64,000 nt of DNA from Marchantia polymorpha subsp. ruderalis (Eukaryota; Streptophyta; Marchantiopsida; Marchantiales; Marchantiaceae). Every line of letters starts with the position of its first letter. The stretch's first letter is position 1. The stretch is taken from contig AP031355.1 of assembly GCA_037833965.1 (NCBI GenBank), forward strand, positions 22,283,501-22,347,500, in the 5' to 3' direction. Made by a program: the position numbers and the translations under genes. Shown one piece after another: positions 10,824 through 29,366 of this stretch. The notes under the pieces were generated by a model. That model was not told the DNA's origin, made no database searches, and saw only the letters and a list, made by a program, of their open reading frames with translations.

Positions 10824-12592
10824 ATGGGTCCAAAGAATGACGCTGTGTGGGACGAGTTTCATGAATCTTAGTGTCTGGACGGATCTAGAGCGGCGAAGGC
10901 AGTTTGTAGAGACTGCTCAACGATTATCGGAGCGGCAGCTGCTCGTCTTCAAAGCCATATCAGTGCTTGACTGAAGCGCGCTCGCTTCATTGAGCAGCAT
11001 AACCTAGGCTTCACTACGCCGCCCCGCAAGAAGACCAAAACGATGATATCATCCTCGGGCGATCCCTCCACTGCAGAACACAACGGCAACGTCACGGTCT
11101 CGTCGTTCACATTTAGGAGTGGCCGTGCTCACTTTGACTATTAGAAAAAGGAAGAGCACAAGCGACTATGCAGATTTTTTGCCCACGCCGTACATCAAAC
11201 GGCGATGCCGTTTAAAACCTTCAAGCATAATACGTGGTAGGTTTTTTCCACGCTCTGCCAGGCGCCTTCCACAGAACCGATGGGCGGTGACTTGTTGCCC
11301 TCAAAATACAAGAATGTTATGGCTAAAGTTGTGCGCAACCTGAAGCAGTTCGTCATAATCTGCCTGATCTTGCACGGCGCCAAAAACGTTCAGGGCAAGC
11401 AGATCATAAAAATGATGGCGTGCGGGCCGGTGGTATTTTTCTTGGAACATTTCTCAATGGAGCTTTGTCGGGAGAGTGCTGAAAATTTGTACAAAAAGCT
11501 GATTGACTGCAAACGCCGCCTGCTACTCACGATTTGCAAACTTGCACATGGCTTTGTTGACCACGTCGTCACTTCCGATGCTGGTAATGACGATGCCGAT
11601 CAACAGCAGGTTGCCACATTGAACAAGCATTTTGTGCGGCCTCCGATTTTCACGTTTGGCTCTGATTTGCCGTCAGTCATGATCAAACTACGCCGTCTTT
11701 GTATCCAAGACACCAAATTTTTCTTTGCGTTTGGCTACTCATCGCACGCGTTGCACAATCTGTGCATGGTTATGGTGAAAAAAATCCTGGACGTAAAGCT
11801 CATTGTCAAGCAGATCGTCTTTCTTGTTAAAAACGTTCAGAATACACATCTCGTCCAGCAGCTACTCGATAAAATATGCTTAGAGAAGTATGGGAGCACG
11901 CTCGTGTTTATTCTATTCACAGAAACGCGCTTGGAACGGTTTGAGAAGCCGCTAAGCGCCTGAATCGAATGCGGACGGCAATATGCGAGCTGCCAACCGA
12001 AATCATATTGAACGACTTAGACGTTGATCTTCCTAATCCTGAGGGACCTGATCTTGTTGGCAGCATTCTAGAAAGGCGTCGCAGCCATGAAAGTGATATT
12101 AAGTACAATGTGCTCTTGTCTGACGTACTTGGAGGGTAACGAGTTGACATTTTTGAGCATTTACGCTTGCTTTCTGGTTGTTGCGCATCACTTTCGCATG
12201 TTGCTGCCAGATGTAAGGGAAGTCTTGGAGCTTAGCAGTGCCGATGTCGACAAATTATATGCGTTGGTTTGCCATCGCATCAAGACAATCTTCTCGCCAT
12301 GGCACGCTTTGGCTTTCCGCATAGATCCTCTATTTGACGATCTTTGCGATTATATATCCAAGCTGCACGTGAAGACTTTCCTCAATTTGGGCGACTTGAC
12401 CATCCTGCAACAATGCAAAACGACAATCAAGAGGATAACCGTTGCCGACGTCATGTTGAACCAAACAATGCAGTCCGAGTTCGGCCTCTACATTTTCTAT
12501 GTCGCTGACAATGACAATGATTTTTCCGACATATTCTCCATGCCGCAACACATGTGGGCGTTGGTTAACGACTCGTTGTACTCACATTTGTT
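10824..12592 (+). pseudogene. hAT-family transposase, 5' part, broken
   Basis: Pieces of one hAT transposase can be followed in order through shifting frames. An ATG at 10824 opens a BED-type zinc finger region (VCRDCS, later LQSHISAC). At 11160-11300 comes the conserved CRFFAHAVHQTAMPF segment. Next (11280-11963) is the catalytic-core region, where the expected first aspartate is lost just before NVQGKQIIKMMACGPVVFF, followed by the segment around SSHALHN. Then 12087-12592 carries the later core region with HALAFRIDP. Several stops and frameshifts make this copy inactive. The dimerisation region is not here; it lies about 16.8 kb downstream at 29.37 kb, so later insertions split the gene. 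The family call is confident. hAT transposases cut and paste DNA using an RNase H-like fold. Confidence 0.8.
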
Positions 12593-12667
12593 GTGCGAAT
12601 ACATATCGCCATACACTCTACATCGCTGACATGCTACTCACATACACATACGCACACATACACACAT
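12593..12667 (+). repeat. 75-bp direct repeat, left copy
   Basis: Identical to 12972-13046 apart from the edges; it contains a CA-rich run. The pair flanks the 292-bp repeat at 12674-12965. It begins exactly where the hAT reading frame stops resembling a transposase. Confidence 0.8.
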
Positions 12668-12673
12668 GTTTCA

Positions 12674-12965
12674 GAAATAAACGGGAGATTCGCCACTGGA
12701 ATTCCCGTCGATCAATTACCCTACTGGCAACAAACTATCACCGTCACAAACATGAGTCAAGCCCAACCCACTCCACACTCGGAGAATCCAAGTTAACGCA
12801 AAGGGAAAAGTCGCTCTACGCTCCCAACGCTTTCAGGCTCGACTCGAAGAACTAACGTTCTTCGAGCCGTCCCCGACTGTATACCCCTCGTGACCCGAAC
12901 CCTAACTTCACGTCTAAATATAGTAAGTGCCCAAACTGCGTGAGCCGACTCCTAACTACATGACA
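12674..12965 (+). repeat. 292-bp repeat, left copy, at the hAT break
   Basis: Same orientation and length as 29075-29366, with about 16 mismatches by hand alignment (near 94-95% identity). It ends in ATGACA. The two copies bracket the whole nest of insertions inside the hAT gene, and the right copy abuts the hAT 3' part directly. They may be terminal repeats (LTR or LTR fragments) of an element that broke the hAT gene. No target-site duplication was found. Confidence 0.75.
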
Positions 12966-12971
12966 ACTGTC

Positions 12972-13046
12972 GTGCGAATACATATCGCCATACACTCTAC
13001 ATCGCTGACATGCTACTCACATACACATACGCACACATACACACAT
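12972..13046 (+). repeat. 75-bp direct repeat, right copy
   Basis: Second copy of 12593-12667. Immediately to its right begins the truncated 3' end of the minus-strand Ty3/gypsy element, so it marks a junction. Confidence 0.8.
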
Positions 13047-13866
13047 ATAAGGCGCGAGAGAGTACACACTCTATAAACCCTATAACATCGATAGGCGGAG
13101 TCAGGCACAACATGTGCCATCCCCTAGAACACCTATCACAAACCAACATACGGGCCGCCTCACCAGCTGATCCACATAGCATGCACCTCAAGCCAGCACG
13201 TACTATTGCTAAGCTTGGTACCATAGTACCATCTATGTTTGGGAGGTGGCATGGCGCACAATTGCGCACATGATCCTTCCAAACAACGCCGTCACGACCC
13301 TCCAACAGGAAAACTCCAGAAGGTAACACCTCCCGCATCCGCAAGATTGTGCGTCCCGCCGTCACATCCAATGTCGTCGGTGCAGTCTGCTGTAGATAGA
13401 CGTAGTCTCCCACATGGAATCTACAAATCGATGGTCGATAACCTCCTCCCCGAATGGTTGCATACCGCAACGTATCTCTATGTTGAGCAATCGCAAGATT
13501 CTCAAACGCTGCAGGCATAACTCTCCGAAAGAGCTCTGCACGGTGAGAACATACTCTCATCCACATATTCGGGTCATCAAGATTCACCACCTCGCTAGAC
13601 TCACGACGAATCGATGTTGGCAAGTCTGGATTTCGGCCGTACAATATAAAATGTGGTGAGAAGGAAGCCAAGGATGCTTGACGACTGAACCGGTATAGCA
13701 TGGCCAACCACGGTAGCTGGATATTCCAGTCCCCAAGATGACCTTTCTGTAGGCCATACTTGCGCAACGCCCTCTTCACCGTCTGTACAACACGTTCAGC
13801 CAAATCATCCGTCTCTGGGTGATCTCGTGATGTGGTCCGATGATCAATCAACGCCTTGTCACACAA
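12997..13866 (-). pseudogene. Integrase C-terminal half followed by truncated PHD finger
   Basis: 289 codons open. The first 30 residues hold the region with the third catalytic acid of the DDE integrase, a variant of HPQTDGQAERVVQT (here HPETDDLAERVVQT). The middle contains the usual gypsy segments (LPWLAMLYRFSRQ, FHVGDYVYL). Residues 228-254 show CMLC, then CDRC, then a histidine in GWH, then C in MLCLTPPI: cysteine-histidine spacing and the LTPPI hallmark of a PHD finger (C4HC3). The last Cys pair is absent because unrelated sequence replaces it after about 13,095. PHD fingers bind histone H3 tails; here it occupies the place where chromoviruses have a chromodomain. The beginning is joined to the catalytic core at 13882-14295 across an in-frame stop. 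Confidence 0.8.
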
Positions 13867-13881
13867 GACCTGAAACTCACC

Positions 13882-14499
13882 CTAAAACTCCGTCCCCTGA
13901 TCGGTCAACACCTCAGCTGGTGCACCATAGTGACTAAGCAGTCTGTCAAGGAAAGCATACGCTACTCCCTCACTCGCCTTGTCAGGTAATGCCACCAACT
14001 CAATCCACTTGGAGAAATGCTCCACCATCACCAACACATACCGATGATGTCGTACAGTCAAAGGTAGTGGTCCAGCAAAGTCCAAACTCCAACGGTAACC
14101 CAACCCCATGATGGGTAATAGATGTAACACTGGTGTCGGGGCATTGAATGATGCCCTCACCCGATCACAAACCATGCAACGTGATACCAACTGCTGTACC
14201 TGAGTATGCATACCACGCCACCAATATTGACCAAGGAGTAAGCTATATGTACGCTTCACTTCAAAATGTCCCAACTCCTCATGAGCATGCCTCACAATGC
14301 GTGCTCTCTAAGCTGGATGTGGTACTACTCGTACCCTACCGTCCTCCCAGACTCGGAGAACATGTGATCCCTCCAATCGGTATCTCTTCGCCCGTTGGAG
14401 AACACGATCTTGCTCCTTGGCACCCACTGTGCCTGGCACCATGCTGGTCCGTAGGAACTCCAATACCAATGCATCATCGTGAACATCACGCTTATCCAC
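13882..14499 (-). pseudogene. Integrase zinc-binding domain and catalytic core
   Basis: The integrase joins reverse-transcribed DNA to the host chromosome. 14499-14308 encodes the linker into the integrase (RVLRVWEDGR-like, seen as VLRVWEDGRVRVV). 14295-13882 encodes the HHCC finger (HEELGHFEVKR, then CMVCDR) and the core with its first two catalytic aspartates in SLDFAGP and LTDQGTEF. Single stops separate these blocks from each other and from the C-terminal half. The domain is otherwise complete, so the breaks look like point decay and not rearrangement. Confidence 0.8.
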
Positions 14500-14544
14500 A
14501 CCACCATCCTCAACCTCAAGATCTGAAGATCGACCATCTATTCT

Positions 14545-15039
14545 CTAACTAGAGTAAGATGTCAGATGATTCTCTCTGCTTGAGTTTCCACATAACCAAC
14601 ACATGAAAGCAGATGCATGCCAACCAGGCACCATCTCCTTGTCAACCTCACCATGCCATCTAGCTCCAGTGTCATCCTCCTGACTAGTGCATGGGTTCCG
14701 ACTCAAACCATCGGCATCTAGGTTCGCAACTCCAGGTCTATGCACTACCTGAAAGTCGTATTCCTGTAAGATGAGAGCCCACCGTGCAAGCTTCCCTGTA
14801 AGCTTGTCGGACTCCATCAACCACTTGAGCGGTTGATGATCAGTAACAAGGGTGAACTGCGTACCAAACAAGTAACACCTGAAGTGTGCCACAGCCCACA
14901 CCGCTGCCAAGCACTCTCCCTCGTACGAACTATACTGCGACTCCGCTGCATTGTTTGAACGACTAGCGTACGCAACCACAAACTCCTTGCCCTCATCATC
15001 ACGCTGCGTCAACACCGCTCCAATTCCCAACATACTCAA
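14545..15039 (-). pseudogene. RNase H domain of the methyltransferase-bearing gypsy element
   Basis: 164 open codons containing the gypsy RNase H core: GIGAVLTQ near the start, ASRSNNAAESQYSSYEGECLA, the acidic turn in VTDHQPLKWLM and, near the end of the domain, HRPGVANLDADGLSR. RNase H removes the RNA strand after reverse transcription. A stop separates it from the reverse transcriptase upstream, and about 130 bp between them reads as the connecting segment in broken frames. Confidence 0.85.
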
Positions 15040-15173
15040 TCAGTGAGCAATTGGTATGGACGACCTCTGATAAGTCTCCTCAAGATGAGAGCGGCCACCA
15101 ACCTGGCCTTGAGCTCAACAAAAGCTCTCTCGTGCTCATCTCCCCATTGCCACTCCTGATCTGACTTCAGCAA

Positions 15174-16112
15174 CTAGTTCAAAGGCTTGGCTATAGCACT
15201 GAACCCCTTCACATACCTCCGGTAGTAGTTCGCTAAACCCATGAATGCACAAACTCTACTCACATCCGTGGGACGAGGGATGCGTGCAATAGCCTTCACC
15301 TTTGCTTGCTGAACTCCTAAACCACCTGGGTATATCACATGACCCAAGTACTCAACCTTCTCTTGGAAAAACTTACACTTCCCAAGATGTAACCTCAAAC
15401 CATGAGCCCTCAACCGTTCAAACACAACCTGCAAATGAATCTGGTGTTGCTCCACAGTGTCACTAAACACCAAGATATCATCAATGTAACTTCTGACAAA
15501 ATCCAGCCCCGCCAGGATTCTGTCCATAACCCTTTGAAACACGGCAGGTGCATTCTTCAACCCAAAGGGTAAGAATCCCCACTGATACAAACAATCCTTG
15601 CCATGGGAGTTGACGCCCCAAAACGCTGTCTTGGTCTTGTCCTCCTCCCGAATTGGCAACTGATGGTATCCTGCCCAAAGATCCAAAGTACTAAAAATCC
15701 TCGCATGTCCCACCACATCGAAGATCTCCTCAGGTGTAGGCATGGCATACTTATCGGACTTCGTCTGCCGATTGATAGGACGGTAGTCTCCACACATGCG
15801 CTTATCCGTGTAGTTGTCATGTACATCCTTCTTCACCGGCATGACAGAGGCTGACGCATACTCACCATGCGATAACTCCACTAGTCCAGCCTCTAGTAGA
15901 TCCAACGTCCTACTCCGAATCAAATCTCTCTCCATCTCACTGTATCGATAAGGACAACGGAAGATTGGCGTATTACTAGCCAATTCTATCCGTATACCGG
16001 GTACAATCAACACATCCAACTCCTTCATACTTAAGGCAAAACAACTCCTATAGTCTCGTAGGAATTGTGTCAATCGTCGCCTCTCTCCTCCTGTGATCTG
16101 GGAACCAATCAA
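15174..16112 (-). pseudogene. Reverse transcriptase domain of the methyltransferase-bearing gypsy element
   Basis: 312 open codons with all main reverse transcriptase blocks: CGDYRPINRQT, LDLWAGYHQLPI, FLPFGLKNAPAVFQ, the catalytic YIDDIL box (SYIDDILVFS) and the primer-grip region YLGHVIYP, then a segment ending YYRRYVKGFSAIAKPLN. This is the best preserved part of the element and places it firmly in Ty3/gypsy. An in-frame stop follows at 15174-15176. Upstream, short out-of-frame sequence connects it to the methyltransferase region. Confidence 0.9.
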
Positions 16113-16169
16113 TGGCTCTCATTACTCCTCCATAGGCACACTAGAGGGAGGCGACATTGTCAATGGTTG

Positions 16170-17432
16170 CTACGCTACACACTGCAAAGAAGGGTTCTCC
16201 GTACCCTCCTTCGTAGCCACCTCCACATGAGAATCCTCTCCAACTGCATGGGCTGCAACTCTGGCAAGTCCTTTCGTCACGTACCATAAACTCCAAGGAT
16301 GACGAATATCTCGCCTGTCGCCTCCAGCCATTGCCTCTACCGTCTCGGTAGGCAATGAGCTAACAAGTGGTGTACTAACCACCAAATCAATGCGCAAACG
16401 GCGTTGCTCCGACAAATCCAAGCTCACAATCCACGTCAAGCAGTTCAAGTCCATAGCTTGACCCAAAACCTGACGACGCGAAGCCTCTGAAACTGTAGCA
16501 GCTACGGTGACACCAGTCATAAATCCCATCGCACGCTCTCTCTCATCAGCGTTGGGCTCCACCAACTGATGTACTGTACTGTCCCACAGTAGTCCAGGTC
16601 CACCATCACGATATGCATGTGATGCCGGATAATTGACAAATGTAGGTAAAGCCATCCGAGGCTGACCTACGCGGTTCACCTTCGCCATAGGTGACCTGTC
16701 AGCAACTCTCACTACCTGAGAGTGTCGAAAAACATCCAAGATACTGTCAACGGTGAGTGTAGGATCACGCTGCACAGAATCATAGGCATGACGCAATACC
16801 TCACGTGGCGAAAGGTTGGTCCACCATAAACGTGCACGATGAGCCTGTGATCCAACCCTCGCAGCATCCAACAGTACTGCTGATCCAATCCATGCTCGGA
16901 CTTGATGGACACTCGCCATCAACTAGGCCCGAGTGTCATCCAACAATGGTACGTTCTCCAGAATGTATGCTGGAGAACGCATCTGCTGCACTTGGAGATG
17001 ACGTAACACTCGCATCATCTCCCAAAACATCCGAGATCTGGGATCATGCAACCCTGTCCCATGTCCAGCGCGTGTGTGTCCCTGACATGGCCAGCCCGCA
17101 ATCACCATATCAATATGGCCAACGCGGTCAAGGTCTGGCGTCCCCAGCAACGAAATGTCTGAAGGCAACGCCTTCTGGAATCCTCGGACAGCTGATCGCG
17201 GCAATAACGAAGGAAAACGCCGCATCAACTGTGCAACATGTCGTGAAGAGACTCGACGTGTAGTCTCGTTCTTCTCCACATACAAGTATCTCCATACGAG
17301 ACACCTGACTACAACACCGCAGCCAAACCTGTGCTGATCCCACCAAAAAGATCCAGCAAACAAACGCCCTCTAAGGAATACTCCCATGCAAAGGTGTAGT
17401 AACCAATGGAGACAATGCGCTAGAACCACCAA
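16170..17432 (-). pseudogene. C5-cytosine DNA methyltransferase domain inside the gypsy polyprotein
   Basis: Domain order follows the family. Motif I (cofactor loop) reads LDLFGGISTGLAAVL at about 17,356-17,312, then hits a TAG and a one-base frame change near 17,290. Motif II region is YVEKNETTRRV. Motif IV carries the catalytic Pro-Cys in GWPCQGHTRAG (Cys at about 17,087). Motif VI is LENVP (about 16,961-16,947). After an in-frame TAG at 16925-16923 come motif VIII (GSQAHRARLWWTNL), motif IX (ERERAMGF) and motif X (GQAMDLNCLTW, ending near 16,425). Such enzymes transfer a methyl group from S-adenosylmethionine to cytosine C5. The domain lies between protease and reverse transcriptase on the same strand, with no sign of separate insertion. 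It is inactive as it stands. Whether it is nearest to plant DRM/DNMT3 enzymes or another lineage cannot be settled by eye. Confidence 0.85.
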
Positions 17433-17538
17433 CTAGCCGATCAGCTGAAGCCCTCTCTGGCTCTGCTGGTAAAGAGGCTTCACTCCAAGCCTTTTTCACC
17501 AACCTATCAGCCTCCAACTGTAGTGCCTGGCACGAACA

Positions 17539-17886
17539 TTACAGTGGAACATCTAAGGGTGAAGTCACCGCCGCTGTGAAACTCACAACCTCCTCCACAT
17601 CCTCGTAGAGTGAGGTATCGTCGGCAAACATGTTCCCCTCCAACAAGTCATCGGGCCAGGTAAGCACTCCGCTAAAACCCGCAACAGATGCCAAGACCGC
17701 TGATGAAGATCCAAGAGGTCGATCCCGAGAAATAAATCTCACTGGCAGCTCGCTCAGACATCCATCTCCGGACTGCCAACCTGGACGATATGCGGCAATC
17801 TCCGTCCAATAGTCCATCCGAAAGCTCATCAAGTATAACACCACTCCACCAACAAGCACATCATATGACTCTGTTGATGTAACCAC
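17539..17886 (-). pseudogene. Late part of the retroviral-type aspartic protease region
   Basis: The segment DVLVGGVVLYLMSFRMDYW and the following RPGWQSGDGCLSELPVRFI resemble the stretch after the protease domain in plant gypsy polyproteins. The catalytic Asp-Ser/Thr-Gly is missing because gag is joined almost directly to this point (about 17,890). Downstream, about 100 bp link it to the methyltransferase region. Confidence 0.6.
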
Positions 17887-17889
17887 AGC

Positions 17890-19640
17890 ACGAACTTCAA
17901 ACTACGAGCTATCATGAGGGTGATCATGCCTCAACTGCACCGCTATGCTCTCTGTCCAGGATCCGATACTAGTACTGGATAGCCTGTGCCTCAGTCACAC
18001 CGTGAGTAACTTAGATTAGCCGTCGCATACGAGTGTATGCCTCACGAAGACTCACCAGTCTTCCGCTCAAAATCCTGGAAGCTCATCAACTTCTCCGTTT
18101 TCACCCCCTGATAATTCTTCCTCAATCTTTGGAAGAACTCAGGAATGGAGCTAAACGAAGGTACGCCACTAGCATCTCCCCTCGTGCTGCCACTGGCAAT
18201 GCTAACAGTACCTTTGCTGGTACTAGTACCAGTTGCGCCAACTGCTCCACTGGTACCCTCGCGGATGCTACTACTCGCACCTCCGCTGATGCCGATACTT
18301 GCACCTCCACTGGTACCCACCCCACCCTGGGTAATGGATAAGTAGTTCGGAGATCAATGGCGCCTCCATGCATCAATCTCCGCAGCATAATCTCTCCCAA
18401 ACTCATGATAATCGTCCATGGGAGGCCCCTCCAAATGCTGGAATAACCTCTTCAACTCAAAGAAGGGTGTAAACAACGTGGGGTTACGCAGAAATTGCAT
18501 ATCACACCACGTGTCAAACTCCTGAATAAAATCATCGAGCTCGATGATGCCCACTGCACCAGAGTAACGTCGAGGGCCCTTCACGGCCCCGTACATCCCG
18601 TCCATGTCCCAAATCAATGGCGTTGGAACACTAGACGATATCACCACCAAAGACTTTGTGTCTGCAACCTCCGGGCCGACTCTCACTCAAGTTTACCTCA
18701 GATGGCTTTTCGGTAGCTCATCATGATTCTAGAAGACTAGGATTCCGCATCATACTCATAACCTAAACACCCTCTCACACAATCTCTCAAGGTATCACTC
18801 CAACTCATACACTCATCGACAATCCAAGGTACTGAAAATTCGTCACCCTTTCATATATGAAACAAGTCCCTACATATGAACTCTCCAAACTTGCTTGAGA
18901 TGCTCTTTCCTACCTCTCTATATATACTACTTGAGAATTTACCATAGTAACAAATGGTATATCTATCTATCCCAATCTATCTATCTATCTATCTAACTTA
19001 CCTTTACGAAGATAAACCATAGTAAGGTTGAGTAGTTATCAATATGTGGCAACATGCCATTGGCTCCCTAAACCTTCTAGATGTTTACTAATCCCTAGAT
19101 TGAGGTGGCGACATGCCATTTGTGACTTTCCCACTTCTAGAACTTCCACTTTCCACTAAGTCAACATTAGACTTAGTCTCACCAATGAAATACTCCTTAC
19201 TTTAGTCAAACCAATCAAAACTAAACATGAAGTTCAAAAGTCTTTTCTTTTGGAATCTAGACTTTTGTACAAGACAAAATAGAAGTGCTCACTCAAATCT
19301 TCTAGAACTTCTCTAGTTATTCCGCCAAGTATAGACATTATAGCTAAACTAGCTAGACTTAGTCATAACTAGCTAGATTTAGTCATAACTATCTTAACCA
19401 TGATTAACTCCTTGGTTAATTCTAGTTTTATTTCACACATGCAATATCCGGTCTTACAGGTCCTGCTCCGCAACAACTGGCGAAATAGGTGAAGGTAGCC
19501 GATACCTCAACCCACTCCGCGTAAATCCACCGCGGTCCTCAACAGGACCACTAGACTGCTCCGTGATGACGAGACCTCAACTGGCACCACTGCCAGATCT
19601 CCACCCAATAACCCAATCCGCCCCTGACGCCGTGCCGCAC
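17890..19640 (-). pseudogene. Gag of the methyltransferase-bearing gypsy element, split by a repeat
   Basis: Gag forms the particle that packages retrotransposon RNA. The N-terminal part lies at about 19,640-19,459, and the rest resumes at 18,686 on the other side of an inserted repeat (18,657-19,458). 18686-18354 encodes a typical gag core (ELDDFIQEFDTWCDMQFL, LFQHLEGPPMDDYHEF). A low-complexity Gly/Ser/Thr linker follows at 18.32-18.15 kb. The frame then contains SFQDFERKTGES and, after a one-base shift, LREAYTRMRRLI and VTHGVTEAQAIQY, both common in plant gypsy gag. Stops and shifts abound. No CCHC zinc knuckle survives; it was probably in the segment deleted between gag and protease. Confidence 0.75.
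18657..19458 (-). mobile_element. Solo-LTR-like repeat (family X), copy 1
   Basis: About 800 bp beginning TGTAAGACCGG and ending near GTTGCAGACACA when read on the minus strand. It interrupts gag: gag-like coding is readable on both sides (AEQD before, DTKSLVVIS after). A diverged second copy is found at 32,841-33,125 plus 36,644-37,058. TG/CA-type ends and no internal coding fit a solo LTR. The flanks show only an imperfect target duplication. An ATCT microsatellite lies inside (about 18,975-18,994). Confidence 0.65.
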
Positions 19641-20059
19641 TGAGCTACTCTAGCCCTACTAGCTAAAGGGTATGGGCAACCTAACCTATCATCACAGCAA
19701 GAAGACTCTCACGATCTACTGGTCATTACTCAAGTCTCACCGTGAGAGAAACATAGATAGGCCGGCCGGTGATCAAGTCCAGCCCCCTATCGCCAACACA
19801 CAGGAGTAAAACTACTCCGGAAATCAACGTCACCCCTACACGGGCGCGCACCAGGAAGCAAGACTGAACAGGATCCAAACACAAGCAAACAGCTAGCAAC
19901 GACTCTCCAGTCTAAAGGAAACATAGCACAAAACAAGACAACACACACGGGACATCGCATCGCTTCGCGATCCCGATTCGATCTCCATTGCCCTCCATCT
20001 ACGTGGGCCTCCAATGCCTATGATGCCCTCTTCACGAAATTGCAAACAAAATGTGTTTG

Positions 20060-20100
20060 AAAACTTCTTCTACTTTTTCTTTTTTTTTCTTTTTCTCCTT
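20060..20100. repeat. Pyrimidine-rich tract (purine-rich on the minus strand)
   Basis: A run dominated by T and C on the plus strand. It separates the gypsy leader from the weak coding region further right and has no assigned role. Confidence 0.5.
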
Positions 20101-20280
20101 CACACAAGGGTCACACTCCCCCTCAACAAACACACTACACACTGAAAGCTCAATATATTGACTACGTCATATATATATATTTACAATGCTTTCAACACAT
20201 CAAGTTTACAGGCAGTGAGACCGGGTGCAAACTCCCGATCCCTTCAGTACCTCTTGTCTAAACGCTACAGGTAGTTGCTA

Positions 20281-20661
20281 TCAATCCTTTGGAAAACTAT
20301 CAAGAAATTTCTCTAGTACAAGAATTTCTTCTGAAAGACAGTCTTGAACATACTGAACATCTCTCAAATGATCAGCAATATCCTTCGGAAGGTCGAGTAA
20401 TTCATCCTCACATATCCTGTACTCTAGGCCGGATTCCTCGAGAAGTTTTTCTACGGCTAGTGCCTCGTCCCAATCTAACCCAGAATTTTTTTCTTCTACC
20501 ACAGCAGTGTTTACCGTATTCTCTTCTACTTGAGGCTGCACCGTCACCTCTTGCTCTTGATCACGTTGCTTGTTGCTGATGACTTCCACTGTCTGGATTT
20601 CTTGTATATCACTGTCGTCCGCTTTTTCTCCAAGTGGCATCTTCCCTTCACACGTCAACAC
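20281..20661 (-). CDS. Possible exon of an unidentified acidic protein
   Basis: Open for 126 codons from an upstream stop to a TGA at the left end; the first ATG is at 20640. The translation is acidic with a believable composition (GLDWDEALAVEKLLEESG, then LPKDIADHLRDVQYV) and could form helices. It matches no family I know. An AG acceptor just upstream (catag) suggests it may be a terminal exon. AT-rich sequence resembling an untranslated tail follows. It is on the same strand as the gypsy element and the weak coding signals at 22.0-22.5 kb, so it could be a host gene remnant or a passenger in a larger element. Confidence 0.35.
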   Translation of the reverse strand: MLTCEGKMPLGEKADDSDIQEIQTVEVISNKQRDQEQEVTVQPQVEENTVNTAVVEEKNSGLDWDEALAVEKLLEESGLEYRICEDELLDLPKDIADHLRDVQYVQDCLSEEILVLEKFLDSFPKD

Positions 20662-21995
20662 TTCACTATGTACAAGGATTGTTTACAGAGTATCTGTAAA
20701 CTAGATCACTAAATTGGAAACTAAAAATAGTTTAACTATAAACTATCACAAAGTGTTACAAGATCACCAGTAACCTTTTTATCATAAATTATACCGATGT
20801 ATAATAATCACAGTAAAATGATACGATAACTGAAGAGAGTTTTAAGACCTATATAAAGTCAACTGTAAAATGCGTAGCACAGGAAATAATTGCCAAACCT
20901 TGTGCTCAAACTATTCCATCCTAGGTAACTGAGAGTACATTGGACATCGACGTGAATACTAACCTGAGAAGAATAGATGAGAACTCTGCTATAACTATAA
21001 CTCTGCTACAAGAGCTTCAAAGGTAATCTACTAGCTCCCAACAACATTTTAAACAGAAGTTTATGGAATTTCATCTCCCCTCAACCCTTCATTACCTACA
21101 TCCGCCCATGATAGGTTGTTATCTACACTCACATTCAGTGCACTTTAAGCTACTAATAAGTCTAATCTTGAGAAAGTATTGCAAAGAGGTGTTGTACTCT
21201 TACTGTCTACGCCGCTGAAACTGTCATGTAGTATGTCCAAGCTGCAACCACACTCTTCCCGAGACATAACACAGACCTTAAATGTCAGAGTTGCAACCAA
21301 AACTCCATGTGTACCCATAATCTTGCTTCACCGTATCTCATCTATGACCGCATCTCCCACAGATGCATGCACTAACATACCCATCAGGTACAGCACCTGA
21401 TACAATACATTACAACAGAAAAAGATTGATTTCTCAAATTCTTTAATCTGCGTCAACCATCAGTTTCAACGCGATGAAGACGATGGGGAACAGACGTGAA
21501 TATACCCACGGGAGATACAAAAGGAGGTTAATGGAGTACTTCCTCCTTTTGTCTTGTCTCCCTTCTGCCAGCACGAGTATTACCTAACCACTTCAATGAG
21601 GAGGATGCTTTTTCTCTTTCACACTCTGCCTGCATGCCTGCCGGAGCTTCACCTCCGAAGGAACAGAAACATTCCTAAGCAAGGTGGTGGATAGAAGAGG
21701 AGACAAACCGAGACGTATTTATAAAGGACGACAAAAAGCTGGCAAGACCTCCGCAATGCTCTCCCAGAATGAGCGAACAATCTTTGATGACTCTGATGAG
21801 GTCATCTGATGTGTACGTGTACTCTCACTAGCAGGACCAGAAGTATGATTTGAGCTCAACTTCCACATCTGGATTATACTCACATACTACTCCTTGGCCT
21901 GTAAACCAAACTCCAATAATTGTGAAGTATACATAGCGAGCCCGTAGAGGTGAAGTGCATGTAGATCTCCTCGTATACTTACTCCTCTTTTATAC

Positions 21996-22482
21996 TTACA
22001 CTCTTATACTTACACTCTCACTTTCTTCATGATCTAAGACGACGGCCAATCCCGAGGACCCCAGATTCTTCAGTCTGCGGCCTCTACTAGATTCACCATC
22101 AGTCATCGTGCCCAAAACCCTGTCTCTCTTGGCTTGCAACAGCTTCTCCAATACACATTCGATCGCATAATTCACCGGCATGCGCAGAATTCTGTTATAG
22201 GGCGGAATCTTACGATTCCTCTAGCTACAGGCCTCGATTGTTACTCTCCGTCATCTGCACGGGATCATGCGTCTGGCAAAATCCAAATCTGCCAATGACA
22301 AATAAGATGCTGAAAATCAAGAAATTCGCTCCGAGAAGATTGGAAAAGCGGGCTCCCATTGCATCAGCTTGTTCTTCTTCTACTACTGCTCGTCCCCGGC
22401 GATTTTCGCTTCCTCCCCGTCGGCAGCAAGTTTGTTCCGAACAACTAATCTGTCTTTCCACCAGCGCTGCACTCTGTGACAT
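21996..22482 (-). CDS. Weak coding signals, possible N-terminal exons
   Basis: Two neighbouring open stretches on the minus strand. 22482-22225 contains an internal ATG at 22359 followed by a hydrophobic stretch (GANFLIFSILFVIGRFGFC) that resembles a signal peptide ending near CQTHDP. 22181-21996 encodes a charged peptide (YAIECVLEKLLQAKRDRVLG) and ends among several gtaagt-like donor sites. They may be exons of one gene that continues to 20.3 kb, but no phase-consistent model was found. The intact chromovirus lies about 500 bp upstream of the ATG. Confidence 0.25.
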
Positions 22483-22880
22483 TTGAGAACTTCAACAGCC
22501 TCGCAATTACCTCCTGCTGCTGGTACTCCTTTCCTCTCCTTTCCGTGGAAATATTACCAACCGAAATCCAACATCTTTCCCAGTATTTCTGTCACTAATT
22601 CCAGTGAATCAAAAGCACTTTCTAGCGTTTCAAAATCTGAACCCAAACCTCTACCGTGCCCTTCGATGCCACACGAAACAAAACTGAATTCTTGAAACTT
22701 CAGTTTTCAGACTCCGACTCAATCTTCAAAATCCCTACTTCCGAACATCAAATCTGAGAATCTCTCTGCACCTATTTCTCGATTCAAAACTCTGATCCCT
22801 CATACTCTCAAGTACAGAAACCTACAGAAATTGCCCAGAGGTATAAACAAACCACAAAAGAGAGAAACACACGACAAAAA

Positions 22881-22885
22881 CACGA
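22881..22885. repeat. 5-bp target-site duplication, left (CACGA)
   Basis: CACGA directly before the 5' LTR. The same five bases follow the 3' LTR at 29013-29017, as expected for LTR-retrotransposon integration. Confidence 0.9.
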
Positions 22886-23304
22886 TGTAACCATCTTTAG
22901 TTAGTTAGAACTAAAGTAGAGGTTACTCTGAATATGGTTGTAGATACTTTAGTGGGCACTAGTCATAGCTGCCACATCAGCGATCCGCGCACTTGGTAGG
23001 TACAGAGTGGATGTGTTAGTTGACAGTGCCACGTCAGCAATCCGTGTGCTTGTAGGTAAGGATTGAGTGTGTTAGTTAGTGTGTTAGTTGAAGCGCCACG
23101 TCAGCAATCCGTGTGCTTGTTAGGGTTATCCGCCACGTCATCCATCCACTAGGAGTGGGATGGATGGTGGGGATTAGATCTTATCACCTTGTACTTGTTG
23201 GTGAGAGCTATATAAGGGAGAGGAGAACCATTGTTGGTATCTCTCATCTTCAGAGTTTACGTTTCTATCTTCGAGTGAACTTCTCTCTAAACCCTAGTGT
23301 TACA
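22886..23304 (+). repeat. 5' LTR of the chromovirus
   Basis: 419 bp, from TGTAACC to GTGTTACA. It contains repeats built around GCCACRTCA at 22971, 23028, 23095 and 23132, and a TATATAAG box at 23209-23216 that would define U3/R. Confidence 0.95.
23209..23216 (+). promoter_or_regulatory. TATA box of the chromovirus LTR promoter
   Basis: TATATAAG, about 95 bp before the LTR end and downstream of the GCCACGTCA repeats. Transcription would start roughly 30 bp further on. Conserved in the 3' LTR. Confidence 0.7.
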
Positions 23305-23305
23305 A

Positions 23306-23317
23306 TGGTATCAGAGC
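23306..23317 (+). promoter_or_regulatory. Primer-binding site, initiator tRNA-Met
   Basis: TGGTATCAGAGC begins one base after the 5' LTR and complements the 3' end of plant initiator methionine tRNA, the usual primer of Ty3/gypsy and copia elements. Confidence 0.95.
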
Positions 23318-23438
23318 GACCTTGCTCTTTCCTTGAGTGTGGATTACCCCTCATGGAATAGCAAGTGAGTGATGATGGAGTGTAGTCTTGAGAGTGTATA
23401 GAGGCTGGCAGAGGTCATTCATCTGCATGTAGAGAGAG

Positions 23439-23687
23439 GTGGAAGGGGGAAATTGTGTGTTTGCAAATATGGACGGGATTGACAGGAATCCAGTACCGCA
23501 CTGGCCAATTCCTAACCTATTCGATATTCACCTTCGTTGCATGGAGAAACATCATTTTCGGATGTACCTTGTGGCTTGTTGGGGTGCAGATTTTATGACT
23601 AGAGTGATGGAGTCAAGAGTGCCACTGATTCTTCCAATAGTTACTTATGGAGAGACTTGGGATTGTACTATATACATTCTATACTGA
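23439..23687 (+). CDS. Leader ORF 1 of the chromovirus
   Basis: Small ORF between primer site and gag; the probable ATG is at 23469. I do not recognise it. The product is about 72 residues: aromatic and basic with no membrane segment, containing NLFDIHLRCMEKHHFRMYL and the stretch VMESRVPLILP, and ending in LY. It aligns by eye with leader ORF 2, which overlaps it in another frame: both share an I-x-x-K-x-x-x-R-x-x-LV pattern, then G, then V-M/I-ES-x-x-P, then a terminal LY. Plant gypsy elements do not normally carry two related leader ORFs. They may be a duplicated accessory peptide or remains of a longer gag N-terminus. Confidence 0.5.
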   Translation: MEGGNCVFANMDGIDRNPVPHWPIPNLFDIHLRCMEKHHFRMYLVACWGADFMTRVMESRVPLILPIVTYGETWDCTIYILY

Positions 23688-23901
23688 TTGTTTCATGGAT
23701 TTGAATCGCGAACCACCTGTCCCGGTTCGATTCAGCACTTATGTAGAGATTAGAACAGTATATAGACAGAAGAGGATATGGAGAGATTTTCTTGTGAGGA
23801 ATTATGGAGAGGAGTACTATAGAGCTGTGATAGAGTCACCTGCACCTTTTGTGACTCCTTTGTTGAGAGGTCACATAGTGATTATACTCACTTTGTATTA
23901 G
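23647..23901 (+). CDS. Leader ORF 2 of the chromovirus
   Basis: Second small ORF before gag; the ATG at 23695 gives about 68 residues, or 84 from the ATG at 23647. It overlaps leader ORF 1 by 41 bases in another frame and ends 17 bases before the gag ATG. Related to leader ORF 1 (see its shared residues), with VIESPAPFVTPLL at the place of VMESRVPLILPIV. Function unknown. Translation of three successive upstream frames would need reinitiation or leaky scanning to reach gag, or splicing of the leader. Confidence 0.5.
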   Translation: MERLGIVLYTFYTDCFMDLNREPPVPVRFSTYVEIRTVYRQKRIWRDFLVRNYGEEYYRAVIESPAPFVTPLLRGHIVIILTLY

Positions 23902-23918
23902 AGGGATTGTGAGAAAGC

Positions 23919-25082
23919 ATGGGAACATCAATTGATATGGGTGAGGTTCTCAATGCAATCATGGCGGAGATGAAGGAGTTGAGAAAAGCAATAGTAGATG
24001 GGCATACCAAGCAGCAAGCCATGGAAGATAAAATCTTCGCATTAGAGAGTGAGAAAGTAGAGAGAGAGAGAGTTGGAGAGATGGAAGTTGAACCTCAAGT
24101 TCAAGCTTCCCAAGTTCAGCCAGAACCAACTCCTATTGATGCAGCAGAGGCAAATAGGAGACGTCTTCAAGAGATTGAAGATCAAGCAAATCTTTTGCTT
24201 CGAATGGGAAAATCCTGTAAGGTGGAAGCTTACAAAGGGAGTAGAGCAATGGGAGTGTTAGAGGGATGGATTATGAGGATGAATATTCATTTATCCCATT
24301 TTCATGTTTCCGATTATATTGCAGGAATGTTCATGAAATCTTATCTTACGGATAAGGCTCTCACATGGTACACAACATGGGAGAGAATGCTTTCAGAACG
24401 AGGTGCTACCATTTCGTGGAGTGGAATGCAAGAAGGACTTCTGCAAAATTTTCAAGCGGTGGATTCTCTTCAAACTGCAAGAATGAAGTTGTGGGATCTG
24501 AAGCAGAAAGGAGGTATTCATGAGTACATTGAAGAATTTCGTGATCTTCAAGTATCTATCATGGATATGAGTGGAGCTGAAGCCTTGGACGTGTTCAAAC
24601 GAGGTTTGAAAGATCGAATTCCAAAGGAGGTGATGGTAAGCAATCCATCTACTGTGAATGAAGCAATCGCAATTGCTCAACGAATTTCAGGTGCTTTTGG
24701 TGTCACACACGGTGAACCAGTGAGCAATTTTAGAGATCCATCTGGTCCAACACCGATGGAGTTGGGAAACCTTCGACGTAGAGAAGGTTTTGCACCAACA
24801 AGAGGACCACCACCAAGATTTGGAGGTGAGATTAGGCGACCAGGAGTTCCAAATTTGCAAGAAGGTTATGCAAATAATGGAATGGTTCGAGGAGGAGCTG
24901 GAGTTCGTGACAATCGCCAATGCTATGCATGTGGACGAATGGGTCACATAGCCAAGTTTTGTCGAGTTCGGCCGACACAACAAGGAGGACGGCCCATGCA
25001 GCGACGACCGTTCAACAATATGGAGGGGATAGAGTATGAAGAGGTGGAGGAAGCAGTTTCGGGAAACGAAGATCACCAGTAA
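23919..25082 (+). CDS. Gag of the chromovirus
   Basis: 387 residues from the ATG at 23919. Structural protein that packages the genomic RNA. Residues 1-90 are helical and charged. Residues 100-260 form the retrotransposon gag core ([49 protein letters not shown]). Residues 280-330 are basic and glycine-proline rich. Residues 335-348 are a CCHC zinc knuckle ([14 protein letters not shown]) for nucleic acid binding. The acidic tail (EYEEVEEAV) overlaps the start of the pol frame. Its TAA at 25080-25082 sits inside the first stem of the predicted frameshift pseudoknot, so a minority of ribosomes would shift to make Gag-Pol. Confidence 0.95.
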
Positions 25083-25131
25083 TCTTGCCTCGCGGCCTTA
25101 CTGGTTCTACAAAGCGAAGAAAAGGCGAGGT
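25061..25131 (+). promoter_or_regulatory. Predicted -1 ribosomal frameshift signal (slippery site plus pseudoknot)
   Basis: GGGAAAC at 25061-25067 is in the correct phase (G GGA AAC in the gag frame). A 7-nt spacer follows. Stem 1 pairs ACCAGTAA (25075-25082) with TTACTGGT (25098-25105), 8 perfect pairs. Stem 2 pairs GCCTCGC in its loop (25087-25093) with GCGAGGT (25125-25131), six Watson-Crick pairs and one G-U. The pol frame is open from 25040, so gag and pol overlap by only 43 nt and the heptamer lies inside that overlap. Slipping one base back gives CGA AGA TCA and continues without a stop into pol. Confidence 0.8.
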
Positions 25132-28100
25132 TGGAAGAAGGCAATGGTTGGGAGCTCATGGAAGGAGTAAGAAGCAAGTTCAACTCATTGTCACTGATGG
25201 TTTCATGGAAGGACACAAGGTGAGAGTTTTAATTGATCCTGGAGCAACTGAGAATTTTCTATCAAGGAGTGTTGCTATGAAGTTAGGTTTGATGTTGATG
25301 AAGGACGTGAGTGAAGAAGTTGAATTGCCAAACGGGCAAACTGAAGTGATAGAAACACTTCCACGGAGTGTAGAATTATCCATAGGTAGATACAAGGAGA
25401 GCATTGAATGGAGAGTAATTCGTTTAGCTCGATATGATGTCATCCTTGGAATGCCATGGATGGAACAATATAATCCGAAGGTAGATTGGAGAAGAAAAGT
25501 GATTACAAGTAGTGGATGGAAGATCTATGGAGATAGAATTAGATCTCAGAATAGGAATTTACCCCTCTTTGTGATGGGTACAGCATCCATTTCTAGAGAT
25601 GATGTATGTTTCCTTGGACTTATAAGAGATATTGGGTCCACGGACAAACCTTACATCCCGGAGTCCTTGAACGACATTTTTATGGAGTATAAAGATGTTT
25701 TTCCAGATGATCTACCTGCAGGATTACCACCAAAAAGGCGAGTAGATCACAAGATTGAGGTGATACCTGGAAGTACACCAACTTGCAAAGCTCCATATCG
25801 TTTGGCTCCAAACGAATTGGAAGAATGCAAAGCTCAAGTGGAGGAGATGTTGAGCAAGGGATTCATTCAACCAAGTGTTTCACCTTATGGAGCTCCAGTA
25901 CTCTTTGTGAAGAAGAAGGATGGATCCATGAGACTATGTATCGATTATCGCGGGTTGAATCAGCAAACGGTGAAAAACAAATATCCATTACCTCGTATGG
26001 ATGATTTGTTTGATCAACTTCAAGGAGCGAAGTACTTCACCAAGCTAGATTTGAGAAGCGGCTACAATCAAATTCGAATTGCAGATGAAGATGTTCACAA
26101 GACAGCTTTTCGTACTAGGTATGGACACTTTGAGTATCTGGTGATGCCTTTTGGTCTCACTAATGCACCAGCTACATTCATGGGATTGATGAACGATATC
26201 TTTCGCTCTTATCTAGATAAATCTGTCATTGTTTTTCTAGATGATATATTGGTGTATAGCAAAACTTTGAGTGATCATAGAAGTCATTTACGAGAGGTAC
26301 TTCAAGTTTTAAGAGACAATCAATTGTATGCCAAAGCTTCAAAATGTGAATTTGGCAAGTCAGAAGTAGATTACTTGGGTCATAGAGTTACAGCTACAGG
26401 AATCCAAGTGATGAGTGAGAAGATAGATGCCATTCAGAAATGGATAGCACCTGAGGATCAAACTCAATTGAAAAGTTTTCTAGGGCTCACTGGATTCTAT
26501 CGTAGATTTGTGAAAGGTTTTGCTCGACTAGCTCAGGCCTTGACTTCCATGTTAGGGAAAGGTCAAAAGTGGAGATGGGGAACAGCTCAAGAGTTAGCTT
26601 TTCAAGCATTGAAAGATGCTTTGTTACACGCACCTATTCTCAAGTGGTATGATCCTAACCGTTCTATCAAGTTGGCCACTGACGCATCAGGTACAACAGT
26701 AGGTGGCATACTTCAACAAGAATGGGAGGATGGATGGCATCCAGTTGCTTTCTATTCTCGAAAGTTGGTGGCGGCGGAACAAAATTATCACACGACAAAA
26801 CGAGAGGAGTTAGCTATCGTGTTGGCAACCAAACATTGGAAGCATTATTTGGGTGACAAGGAGTTTGTGGTGGAGACTGATCATAAACCCTTGGTTTATT
26901 TGGAAACTCAGAAGGATCTGTCCAAACGACAAATTCGATGGGCAGAGTGGCGTCAACGCTTCAACATGAAGATTGTGTACGTGGAGGGAAAGAAGCAACT
27001 TGCAGATGCTCTCACACGCATGCCTTGTTTGAATCATGTTGCAGAAGTGAAAATTCAGGCGGATTGGTGGAGCAAGATGTCACAAGCCACAAAGGAGGAT
27101 GAAGAGATCACTCGGGCACTACAAACTGGAAAGGCAGAGAAATCTCGAGGTTTGGCGTTTTACAATCAGCGTATATGGATTCCACAAGATCACGATTTGC
27201 GCACAATGATTTTGGCAGAAAGTCATGATACAGCCATTGCAGGTCATGTGGGAGTGGAGAAAACCGTGGAGAGTATACAACGAGTGTACTATTGGCCCAA
27301 AATACGTGAGGATGTGGAGTCTTATGTTCGAAGTTGTGTTGCTTGTCAACAAAACAAGGCAAGTAATCAAAAACCAGCGGGTTTATTACAGCCTCTTCCT
27401 ATTCCCGAACAGCGGTGGGAACATGTCACCATGGATCTTGTATGTGAGTTACCAAGGACTTCGTTAGTACATGATTCAGTGGTGGTTTTTGTGGACAAAT
27501 TGAGCAAGATGATTCACATCAGGCCAACCACAAAAACAGTAACAGCTCCACAACTAGCTCAATTGTATCTAGATGCAGTTTTTGTAAATCATGGCTTAAG
27601 CAAAGTGTTAATCACGGATAGAGGTACTCACTTCACTAGTTTATTTTGGAAAACTTTGTTTAGTTTTTTCAAAACAAAACTAGCAATGTCAACGGCCTAT
27701 CATCCTCAAACTGATGGACAAACTGAGAGGGCAAATAGAACCATAGAGGATATGCTACGAGCCTTCACATTAGAAGAGCAAGAAGAGTGGGACAACCTTT
27801 TGCCACTTGTGGAATTTGCATATAACAATTCTGTTAATGCATCCACAAAAATGTCTCCATTTTTTCTTATGTATGGAGCTCATCCGATCACTCCTTCAAG
27901 TTTGATGAGACTTCCCAAAGGAGAGGAGTTTTCTTCCAAAGTTGCGGCCGTCAACGAATTCGTGGAGCATATTCACCGAGGACTACATCAGGCCAAGGAG
28001 AAGTTGGTGATAGCTCAAAATCGGCAAAAGCAGCATACCGATGCTCATCGGAGAGAAGTGATTTTTGAGGTTGGAGATCATGTTTGGTTATCTACAACGA

Positions 28101-28513
28101 ATTTGTCTCTTGTAGGAACACCAAAGTTAAACCCTAGGTTCATTGGTCCATTTTTGGTTTTGAAGCGTGTTGGTGAAGTGTCATACAAGTTGGAACTTCC
28201 GGCACATATGAAAATACATCCAGTATTTCATGTGTCACGATTGCGAAAACATGTACCACGACCAAAACAATTCACCAACCAACCAGCACCACCTCCTCTT
28301 CCAACCTTGATAGCAGATCATGAGGAGTTTGAGGTAGAAAAGATACTCAAGAAACGAATTCGAGGTCATAAATATCCCAAAGTAGAGTATTTGATTCAAT
28401 GGAAAGGCTATCCATCGTATGAATCAACTTGGGAACCAGCTAAAAATTTAGCAAATGCACCTTTGATAGTTCAGGAGTTTGAACGTATGTGCAACGAGGA
28501 CGTTGCATCTTAA
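25085..28513 (+). CDS. Pol polyprotein of the chromovirus (PR-RT-RH-IN-chromodomain)
   Basis: About 1140 codons in the -1 frame relative to gag, with no ATG at its start; expression is expected by frameshifting at 25061-25067. Residue numbers count from 25085. Protease: [10 protein letters not shown] (about 49-58), with Pro in place of Ser/Thr after the catalytic Asp. Reverse transcriptase: [23 protein letters not shown] and the catalytic FLDDILVYS (384-392). RNase H: LATDASG, REELA, ETDHKPL. Integrase: His714, His721, Cys751, Cys754 finger; catalytic Asp784, Asp845, Glu881; GPF motif at 1021-1023. A chromodomain at about 1081-1130 ([27 protein letters not shown]) should direct insertion toward marked chromatin. 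All domains are complete, and the TAA overlaps the polypurine tract. Confidence 0.95.
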
Positions 28514-28526
28514 AAGGAGGGAGGTT
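28512..28526 (+). promoter_or_regulatory. Polypurine tract of the chromovirus
   Basis: AAAAGGAGGGAGG followed by TT immediately before the TG of the 3' LTR; it primes plus-strand DNA synthesis. It overlaps the pol stop codon. Confidence 0.85.
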
Positions 28527-29012
28527 TGTAACCATCTTTAGTTAGTTAGAACTAAAGTAGAGGTTACTCTGAATATGGTTGTAGATACTTTAGTGGGCAC
28601 TAGTCATAGCTGCCACATCAGCGATCCACGCACTTGGTAGGTACAGAGTGGATGTGTTAGTTGACAGTGCCACGTCAGCAATCCGTGTGCTTGTAGGTAA
28701 GGATTGAGTGTGTTAGTTAGTGTGTTAGTTGAAGCGCCACGTCAGCAATCCGTGTGCTTGTAGGTAAGGATTGAGTGTGTTAGTTAGTGTGTTAGTTGAA
28801 GCGCCACGTCAGCAATCCGTGTGCTTGTTAGGGTTATCCGCCACGTCATCCATCCACTAGGAGTGGGATGGATGGTGGGGATTAGATCTTATCACCTTGT
28901 ACTTGTTGGTGAGAGCTATATAAGGGAGAGGAGAACCATTGTTGGTATCTCTCATCTTCAGAGTTTACGTTTCTATCTTCGAGTGAACTTCTCTATAAAC
29001 CCTAGTGTTACA
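28527..29012 (+). repeat. 3' LTR of the chromovirus, with an extra 67-bp unit
   Basis: 486 bp. Identical to the 5' LTR except for two substitutions (GATCCACG for GATCCGCG, CTCTATAAA for CTCTCTAAA) and one additional 67-bp tandem unit: GCCACGTCA-type repeats start at 28612, 28669, 28736, 28803 and 28840. Confidence 0.95.
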
Positions 29013-29017
29013 CACGA
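29013..29017. repeat. 5-bp target-site duplication, right (CACGA)
   Basis: Matches 22881-22885. Confidence 0.9.
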
Positions 29018-29074
29018 AGAGGCAAAACAGAACATAAAACGGTTACACACAAAAACGTCGAGAGTTCTTTGAGT

Positions 29075-29366
29075 GAAATAAACGGGAGATTCCCCACTTG
29101 AATTCCCGTCGGTCAATTACCTTACTGGCAACAAACCGTCACCGTCACAAACATGAGTCAAGCCCAACCCACTCCACACTCGAAGAATCCAGGTCGATGC
29201 AAAGGGGAAAGTCGCTCTACGCTCCCAACGCTTTCAGGCTCGACTCGAAGAACTAACGTTTTTCGAGCCGTCCCCGACTGCATACCCCTCGTGACCCGAA
29301 CCCTAACTTCACGTCTAAATATAGTAAGTGCCTAAACTGCGTGAGCCGACTCGTAACTACATGACA
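29075..29366 (+). repeat. 292-bp repeat, right copy, at the hAT break
   Basis: Partner of 12674-12965. It ends in ATGACA, and the next base opens the 3' part of the hAT transposase, so its right edge is a clean insertion boundary. Between the chromovirus and this repeat lie 57 bp continuous with the sequence left of the chromovirus. Confidence 0.75.

Follow-up and report, generated by a model that had tools for sequence, protein, structure and literature searches.

The 64,000-nucleotide window that we analyzed comes from the liverwort Marchantia polymorpha subsp. ruderalis (contig AP031355.1, positions 22,283,501 to 22,347,500) and contains a Ty3/gypsy-type retrotransposon with an embedded C5-cytosine DNA methyltransferase (DNMT). 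The element spans 12589-29366 (-), and gag, DNMT, reverse transcriptase (RT), RNase H (RH) and integrase (IN) follow one another within 13081-18605 (-) (Table 1). A first-pass annotation, made from the sequence alone, had reported this order, and both Pfam matches and alignments agree with it. It had confined the element to 13104..19640, which proved too short because a 6.1-kb chromovirus is nested in the leader; this insertion is also why the 5' terminal repeat, A1, lies as far out as 29366-29075. The element has two features beyond that description, a PHD finger behind the integrase and a leader open reading frame (ORF).

As for the methyltransferase, the Pfam search proposed by the annotation confirms that the domain is real, window 16923-17432 matching PF00145 with an E value of 2.7e-10 (40.7 bits vs. 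a curated cut-off of 22). The second half of the domain (16170-16922) has no Pfam match alone, yet it aligns to relatives. The motifs listed earlier are present in the unrearranged order I-IV-VI-VIII-IX-X, unlike in DRM, with GWPCQG (motif IV) at 17079-17096 and LENVP (motif VI) at 16947-16961. However, motif I (LFGGISTGL, 17324-17356) lies in a frame different from that of motifs IV-X, indicating a frameshift near 17300-17324, and an in-frame stop (16923-16925) parts motif VI from motif VIII. In the family, the catalytic Cys, the motif VI Glu and both motif VIII Arg residues are each kept in >90% of aligned segments, while motif IV reads GWPCQ or GWECQ, vs. PCN in DNMT3. Both the family profile and the predicted fold, which is closest to DNMT3-DNA complexes, rank DNMT3 first, and among enzymes of known structure DNMT3 is a nearer relative of the domain than DNMT2, DRM or the bacterial ones. 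DNMT1 and CMT are in neither the profile nor the fold match list, an absence that excludes no family. By profile and predicted fold, the domain is thus a DNMT3-like C5-cytosine methyltransferase. A bacterial origin was considered, since a single-sequence PDB search put HaeIII first, and was rejected on the ranking by family profile and fold. The genome also has a host DRM-like gene with rearranged motif order (C2:342518) and a host DNMT3-like gene (L023, C6:12459429) with at least two exons, unrearranged motif order and FPCQ.

Judged by its reading frames, the window copy is a dead element. Both gag and DNMT are frameshifted, the DNMT also contains a stop, and two more stops lie between ORF1 and RT. 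An internal deletion has removed what corresponds to residues 221-654 of P0001 (Mp_8g17980) or, by comparison with P0002, residues 205-684, a stretch that holds the CCHC knuckle (P0002 residue 334) and the protease DSG active site (residue 638). The protease remnant noted in the annotation therefore exists, but only because the deletion left that part behind; intact copies have a protease. Over 386 residues, DNMT and ORF1 tail match the M. polymorpha protein Mp_8g17980 at 88.9%, far beyond chance. The A1 and A2 repeats differ at 16 of 290 aligned sites, which makes this an old insertion, and no target duplication was found, the flanks being without match and B2 incomplete. Among 74 private changes, 39 are C-to-T or G-to-A, with no clear CpG excess (8 of 180 CpG vs. 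31 of 908 other C/G sites). The CpG observed/expected ratio, which is not decisive for methylation, is 0.73 in the window element, 0.64-0.76 in ten copies and 0.83 in the rest of the window.

Intact copies, which the annotation had suggested seeking, are present elsewhere in the genome (241 Mb in nine contigs, the window lying inside a 31-Mb contig). PF00145 gave at least 123 scored matches among 290 candidates, including at least two host genes, and 25 of these 123, scattered over all nine contigs, fall within open frames 1,324 amino acids or longer. We read 21 of these 25, and all 21 are the same element. Since many genomic copies carry it, the DNMT is no stray insertion. Family size rests on PF00145 matches, which were not sorted singly, and on counts of repeat junctions (below); copies were selected by a PF00145 match, so that DNMT-free copies would escape. 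We rejected the possibility, raised in the annotation, that the domain inserted later and independently, within boundaries of its own, because it shares a frame with gag in 21/21 intact ORF1s, all found through the DNMT, and in the distant relative L016 described below. Seven protein models (six from M. polymorpha, one from Calypogeia) compared with 48 genomic loci, a part of the copies, are at most 97% identical to them.

The intact ORF1 encodes Gag-CCHC-protease-DNMT, with DNMT as the C-terminal domain, and ends in TAG CAA CCA or TAG CAA CTA in 20 of 21 copies; the window copy keeps TAG CAA CCA. UAG-CARYYA is the tobamovirus readthrough motif, and rice gypsy elements include readthrough candidates, according to the available portion of PMC2754532. 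By motif match, the ORF1 stop thus lies in a candidate readthrough context. Beyond the UAG, ORF2 (RT-RNaseH-integrase-PHD) continues in the ORF1 frame in all 10 copies read that far. It is open for 1,042 amino acids in seven of them, each of which ends in a complete C4HC3 PHD pattern; the solved PHD fingers closest to that of the window are those of KMT2C, KMT2D and DPF3. Consequently, while the annotation was right to place the DNMT between protease and RT, the wording misleads, because a DNMT that forms the C-terminal part of ORF1, with RT-IN-PHD behind a UAG, should be made at the Gag level. A leader ORF was found in eight of ten copies (c1-c4 and c6-c9) and not detected in c5 and c10. It has 116-119 amino acids in seven copies and is truncated to 83 in c1, with in-frame indels between copies and a ratio of nonsynonymous to synonymous substitution rates (dN/dS) of 0.27; that of c6 has no Pfam match.

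The assignment to Ty3/gypsy holds for the RT, the domain order and the target duplications but not for the ends. The nearest solved RTs are 4ol8 (Ty3 RT, 1.4e-48), 7q5b (Ty3-G Gag-Pol, 1.3e-47) and then a caulimovirus-type enzymatic polyprotein (8r0s, 5e-35), and the order RT-RNaseH-integrase is that of Ty3/gypsy elements. However, no pair of long terminal repeats (LTRs), as expected of such elements, was found between the 5' and 3' stretches. Instead, there are split direct repeats in the layout A1...B1-A2-B2: the element opens with A1 (about 293 nt) and closes with B1 (119 nt), which a GC dinucleotide separates from A2, and then B2. All nine copies c1-c9 have A1 (in c3 across two stretches), while a search in c10 gave no convincing match. 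B1-A2-B2 is found in c2, c3, c5, c7 and c8 and is rearranged in c6; c9 has B1-A2, with no B2 found. A genome-wide count of the B-A junction pattern (at most two mismatches) gave 203 occurrences (118 + 85), vs. eight for a reversed control. The element termini, TGTCATG and CACGACA, are of the TG...CA type. With c9 and c10 left out for their incomplete ends, a perfect 4-bp target duplication flanks all eight evaluable copies, c1-c8 (TCTT, AGGC, GGTT, TGAT, ATGT, GATG, TGTC and CACA), although TGTC in c7 equals the first four bases of the element, making the exact boundary ambiguous. Copies c1 and c4 are a short form that ends after B1, lacking A2-B2, yet both have perfect target duplications; such copies without any terminal repeats bear on how the ends of the complementary DNA (cDNA) are made. 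A plant initiator-tRNA primer-binding motif is absent from L016, and its sole exact occurrence in the window is two bases behind the LTR of the nested chromovirus. DIRS, PAT and Ngaro elements have split direct repeats and integrate by tyrosine recombinase, and members of the DIRS order are not known to make a target duplication. The Marchantia element shares their layout but, having a DDE integrase and 4-bp target duplications, does not qualify as one of them.

Several insertions are recent, since A1 and A2 are identical in c2 (292 sites) and c6 (271 sites, A2 shortened) and one change apart in c7 and c8; B1 and B2 are identical in 6/6 cases. The family is also under selection. When c10, which belongs to another subfamily, was compared with the nine other copies, dN/dS came to 0.147 (DNMT), 0.144 (ORF2 codons 1-170, covering the linker and the start of RT) and 0.129 (300 Gag codons), and the median for DNMT over 54 between-subfamily pairs was 0.137. 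On these rates, the DNMT is about as constrained between subfamilies as Gag and the start of Pol.

Related elements exist outside Marchantia. The window DNMT matched 51 proteins, the best from M. polymorpha itself (91% identity), and the other species-named matches are from the liverwort Calypogeia fissa (70%) and the mosses Sphagnum troendelagicum and S. fallax. A scan of genome contigs gave seven loci, six weak and one strong, L016 (CADCWO010000201.1, 9,285 nt). L016 closes as a circle through 127-nt identical ends and has both ORFs open, DNMT (46% identical to the query P0008) and PHD included, in the same layout, in which ORF1 runs to UAG CAA TCA and ORF2 follows in frame. It is filed as a Synechococcales cyanobacterium metagenome-assembled genome; being an intact eukaryote-type retroelement, it is most simply, and likely, a eukaryotic contaminant. 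P0034, filed under Candidatus Obscuribacterales, is also among the DNMT matches and may be a contaminant as well. In viral contigs, a scan with P0033 found no match, while the family profile picked up 15 weak ones, all short segments at 26-43%.

Closterium polyproteins and environmental proteins have the same domain set as the liverwort element, and the PHD finger also occurs in far relatives. The DNMT lies ahead of RT in the liverwort elements and in P0066, P0070-P0072, P0081 and P0108. In a second architecture, found in environmental proteins P0074 and P0077-P0079, it comes after RNase H, and in the fragments P0045, P0048 and P0076 it is directly before the integrase. P0077-P0079 likewise have DNMT before the integrase, with a PHD in P0078 and P0079, while P0074 has a G-patch domain and no integrase match. 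In an RT tree of 11 rows, drawn from 13 segments of >250 positions (two Marchantia gene models omitted, shorter segments unused), three elements with DNMT after RNase H form one supported clade (100/98). A DNMT tree of 25 rows (23 chosen proteins, L016 and the host DNMT3-like gene) sets such elements apart weakly (84/24 for five, with P0076 outside). The host gene, the sole non-element DNMT in that tree, is a very long branch far from the element DNMTs. The simplest reading would be one capture of a DNMT, followed by one move within the polyprotein.

The precedent for such an element is KnitGypsy-Dnmt3 of the charophyte Klebsormidium nitens (de Mendoza et al. 2018, PMC5890265, of which we cite the available portion). 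As the annotation anticipated, the Marchantia element is comparable to it. In both, the polyprotein combines Gypsy-type domains with a Dnmt3-class domain that is unrearranged, the repeats are DIRS-like despite the Gypsy domain set, and the DNMT is under purifying selection, with Ka/Ks <0.2 there and about 0.15 between subfamilies here (PMC5890265). This likeness is by description and not by sequence, no K. nitens protein being among the matches of our protein searches. Distinctive of the Marchantia element are the land-plant host, the DNMT in the Gag-protease ORF, the PHD finger and the readthrough motif. According to its text, the KnitGypsy-Dnmt3 DNMT is in the Pol ORF, whereas that of Marchantia is in ORF1 and would join Pol only by readthrough; the available portion mentions no PHD finger, leader ORF, 4-bp duplications or readthrough motif (PMC5890265). 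The dinoflagellate elements SymbioDIRS-Dnmt3, which is active on CG in yeast, and SymbioLINE-Dnmt are likewise retrotransposons with a captured DNMT, but they belong to other classes and are regarded by the authors as independent acquisitions (PMC5890265). The polyproteins of Closterium (NIES-53, -54 and -68), e.g., P0072 (1,928 amino acids), have a related DNMT and the same order CCHC-DNMT-RT-RH-IN. Unlike Marchantia ORF1/ORF2, P0072 is one uninterrupted frame, and Pfam found no PHD in it or in P0081. Chromoviruses, too, are Ty3/gypsy elements with a C-terminal chromatin-reading domain behind the integrase, but this is a chromodomain and not a PHD, and the one nested here has LTRs and no DNMT match in Pfam.

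As far as their available text goes, a 2019 review describes methylase-encoding (adenine or cytosine) Ty3/Gypsy and DIRS elements in many lineages, green algae and charophytes included, but not in land plants such as tracheophytes (PMC6338049); a 2025 DNMT survey, citing the 2018 work, places DNMT3 in LTR ("Copia") and DIRS retrotransposons of streptophytes and dinoflagellates (PMC12344493); and the Marchantia methylome paper describes five DNMTs (MET, CMT, DRM) and mentions no retrotransposon-encoded one (PMC5784723). We found no description of bryophyte DNMT elements in the literature searched, which largely excludes subscription journals.

With moderate confidence, we favor the reading that the window holds a dead copy of a multicopy, recently mobile Ty3/gypsy-type liverwort retrotransposon with a captured DNMT3-like methyltransferase, which would act as follows. 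Ribosomes would mostly stop at the leaky UAG, so that Gag-protease-DNMT is made in excess over the readthrough product, Gag-protease-DNMT-RT-RH-IN-PHD. Both proteins would assemble in the particle, bringing many DNMT domains beside the cDNA. More tentatively, we propose that the element's own cDNA is methylated by the DNMT, either ahead of integration or as it happens, and that the PHD finger guides the integrase complex toward a histone state, much as chromodomains are thought to steer chromovirus integration. The gain might be a new insert that already resembles host DNA on entry, or a preference for targets where insertion does no damage. Self-methylation of the cDNA is plausible and was proposed by de Mendoza et al. 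for their elements (PMC5890265, available portion). A bolder version, which we think rather unlikely as a whole, would be an old plant/algal clade with a chromatin writer and reader, in which DNMT made in excess via the leaky UAG methylates cDNA in the particle as an entry pass and PHD directs integration, the DNMT having been captured a single time, before the split of liverworts, mosses and zygnematophyte algae (or having spread between them), and later moved once in the polyprotein.

Several observations weigh against the favored reading. The catalytic domain of KnitGypsy-Dnmt3 gave no methylation in yeast, a test that its authors call inconclusive (PMC5890265), and motif IV PC is changed to EC in 15 of 117 aligned segments. 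The readthrough context is a match and not a measurement, and the motif is missing in one of 21 copies (L065). Constraint is weaker within the nine copies (dN/dS 0.28 for DNMT, 0.32 for early ORF2 and 0.28 for Gag), and for DNMT it is about 0.21 within the larger subfamily of 18 copies (range 0.20-0.28 over analyses); moreover, these ratios are lowered, most strongly within subfamilies, because copies were chosen by PF00145 and an open ORF1. Finally, A1 and A2 of c5 differ at 6 of 293 sites, so not all intact copies are new.

There are two main alternatives to this reading. The DNMT and PHD might instead act in trans in the nucleus, methylating or marking host chromatin at and around the target or heterochromatinizing sister copies, which would make insertions tolerable by self-limitation or safe targeting. 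A PHD that closes ORF2 in 7/7 copies with an open ORF2, occurs in far relatives and is closest to those of KMT2C, KMT2D and DPF3 would suit this, as would the related elements in which DNMT lies after RNase H, beside the integrase, fitting a role in the integration complex; the liverwort DNMT, however, sits in the Gag ORF and not beside the integrase, and we hold such action in trans to be a minority possibility. We also think it unlikely, and slightly more so, that the DNMT has lost the ability to methylate DNA, acting instead as a structural or nucleic acid-binding part of the particle or methylating RNA. GWPCQ/GWECQ in place of the PCN of DNMT3 and the inconclusive yeast result point that way, but the catalytic Cys, motif VI Glu and two motif VIII Arg are too widely kept, and the fold too close to DNMT3-DNA complexes, to favor it.

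It is very improbable that the element carries the DNMT as a functionless passenger, derived from a piece of a host gene that landed in one copy, and for the family we take this as refuted at the level of selection. The frameshifts and stops of the window copy would fit a passenger, and copies were sought by DNMT, leaving DNMT-free ones uncounted. Against this, the domain shares one frame with gag in every intact ORF1 read, is constrained like Gag and early ORF2, and is conserved at 46% identity in L016 and also in Closterium. Least probable of all, and likewise taken as refuted, is a host gene beside unrelated retrotransposon debris, or a contaminant: the genome does have DNMT3-like and DRM-like host genes, but these are separate loci, the DNMT3-like one far from the element DNMTs in the tree, and the window lies inside a 31-Mb contig of a genome with 25 long-frame matches over all nine contigs.

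The methylating elements characterized before are a Gypsy-type one in one charophyte and others in dinoflagellates, neither easy genetically. Marchantia has the same kind of element in many copies, many of them intact, recently mobile and under selection. With intact mobile copies in this tractable plant and its methylation enzymes described, why a transposon carries an enzyme of its own silencing becomes directly testable. The layout itself (DNMT in the Gag ORF before a readthrough-context UAG, PHD behind the integrase, split repeats with a DDE integrase) also yields predictions, open to test, on dosage and on where the enzyme acts.

Table 1. Parts of the DNMT-carrying element and of the chromovirus nested in it (window coordinates).
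Feature	Position	Strand	Evidence
A1, 5' terminal repeat, starts TGTCATG	29075..29366	-	blastn with A2 of copy c5, 91.8% over 293 nt
Nested chromovirus (Ty3/gypsy with chromodomain), foreign to the element	22886..29012	+	leader homology resumes across it
Leader ORF ("ORF0"), acidic	20281..20661	-	related to the 116-119 amino acid ORF of intact copies
gag, N-terminal part	18048..18605	-	residues 1-186 of Mp_8g17980, 91% identical
gag continuation, shifted frame, up to the internal deletion	17948..18052	-	alignment to P0001/P0002
Protease C-terminal remnant and ORF1 spacer	17389..17952	-	88.8% to Mp_8g17980 residues 655-842
DNMT3-like C5-cytosine methyltransferase domain (by profile and predicted fold)	16341..17386	-	Pfam PF00145, motifs, alignment to relatives
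ORF1 end, TAG CAA CCA (UAG-CARYYA readthrough motif)	16164..16172	-	same motif at the homologous place in intact copies
Reverse transcriptase	15174..16118	-	PF00078, 6.8e-33
RNase H	14545..15039	-	PF17917, 2.3e-34
Integrase zinc-binding domain and N-terminal part of core	13882..14307	-	PF17921, 1.1e-13; PF00665, 1.1e-10
Integrase, remaining core and C-terminal region, same frame, beyond a stop	13186..13881	-	Ty3-G Gag-Pol match over residues 3-89
PHD finger, 3' end truncated at about 13081	13087..13185	-	Pfam, 9.6e-7
B1 repeat	12968..13070	-	97% to B of copy c5 over 105 nt
A2 repeat	12674..12965	-	90.8% to A of copy c5
B2 repeat, partial, 3' end of the element	12589..12667	-	repeat comparison

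The nested chromovirus looks intact, with a gag ORF at 23913-25079 and a pol with chromodomain at 25040-28510 (+). Its LTRs, within 22886-23304 and 28527-29012, are 99-100% alike, and its flanks suggest a CACGA target duplication. Elsewhere in the window, 33243-35948 (+) contains long open frames of 632 and 269 codons, the former without a Pfam match.

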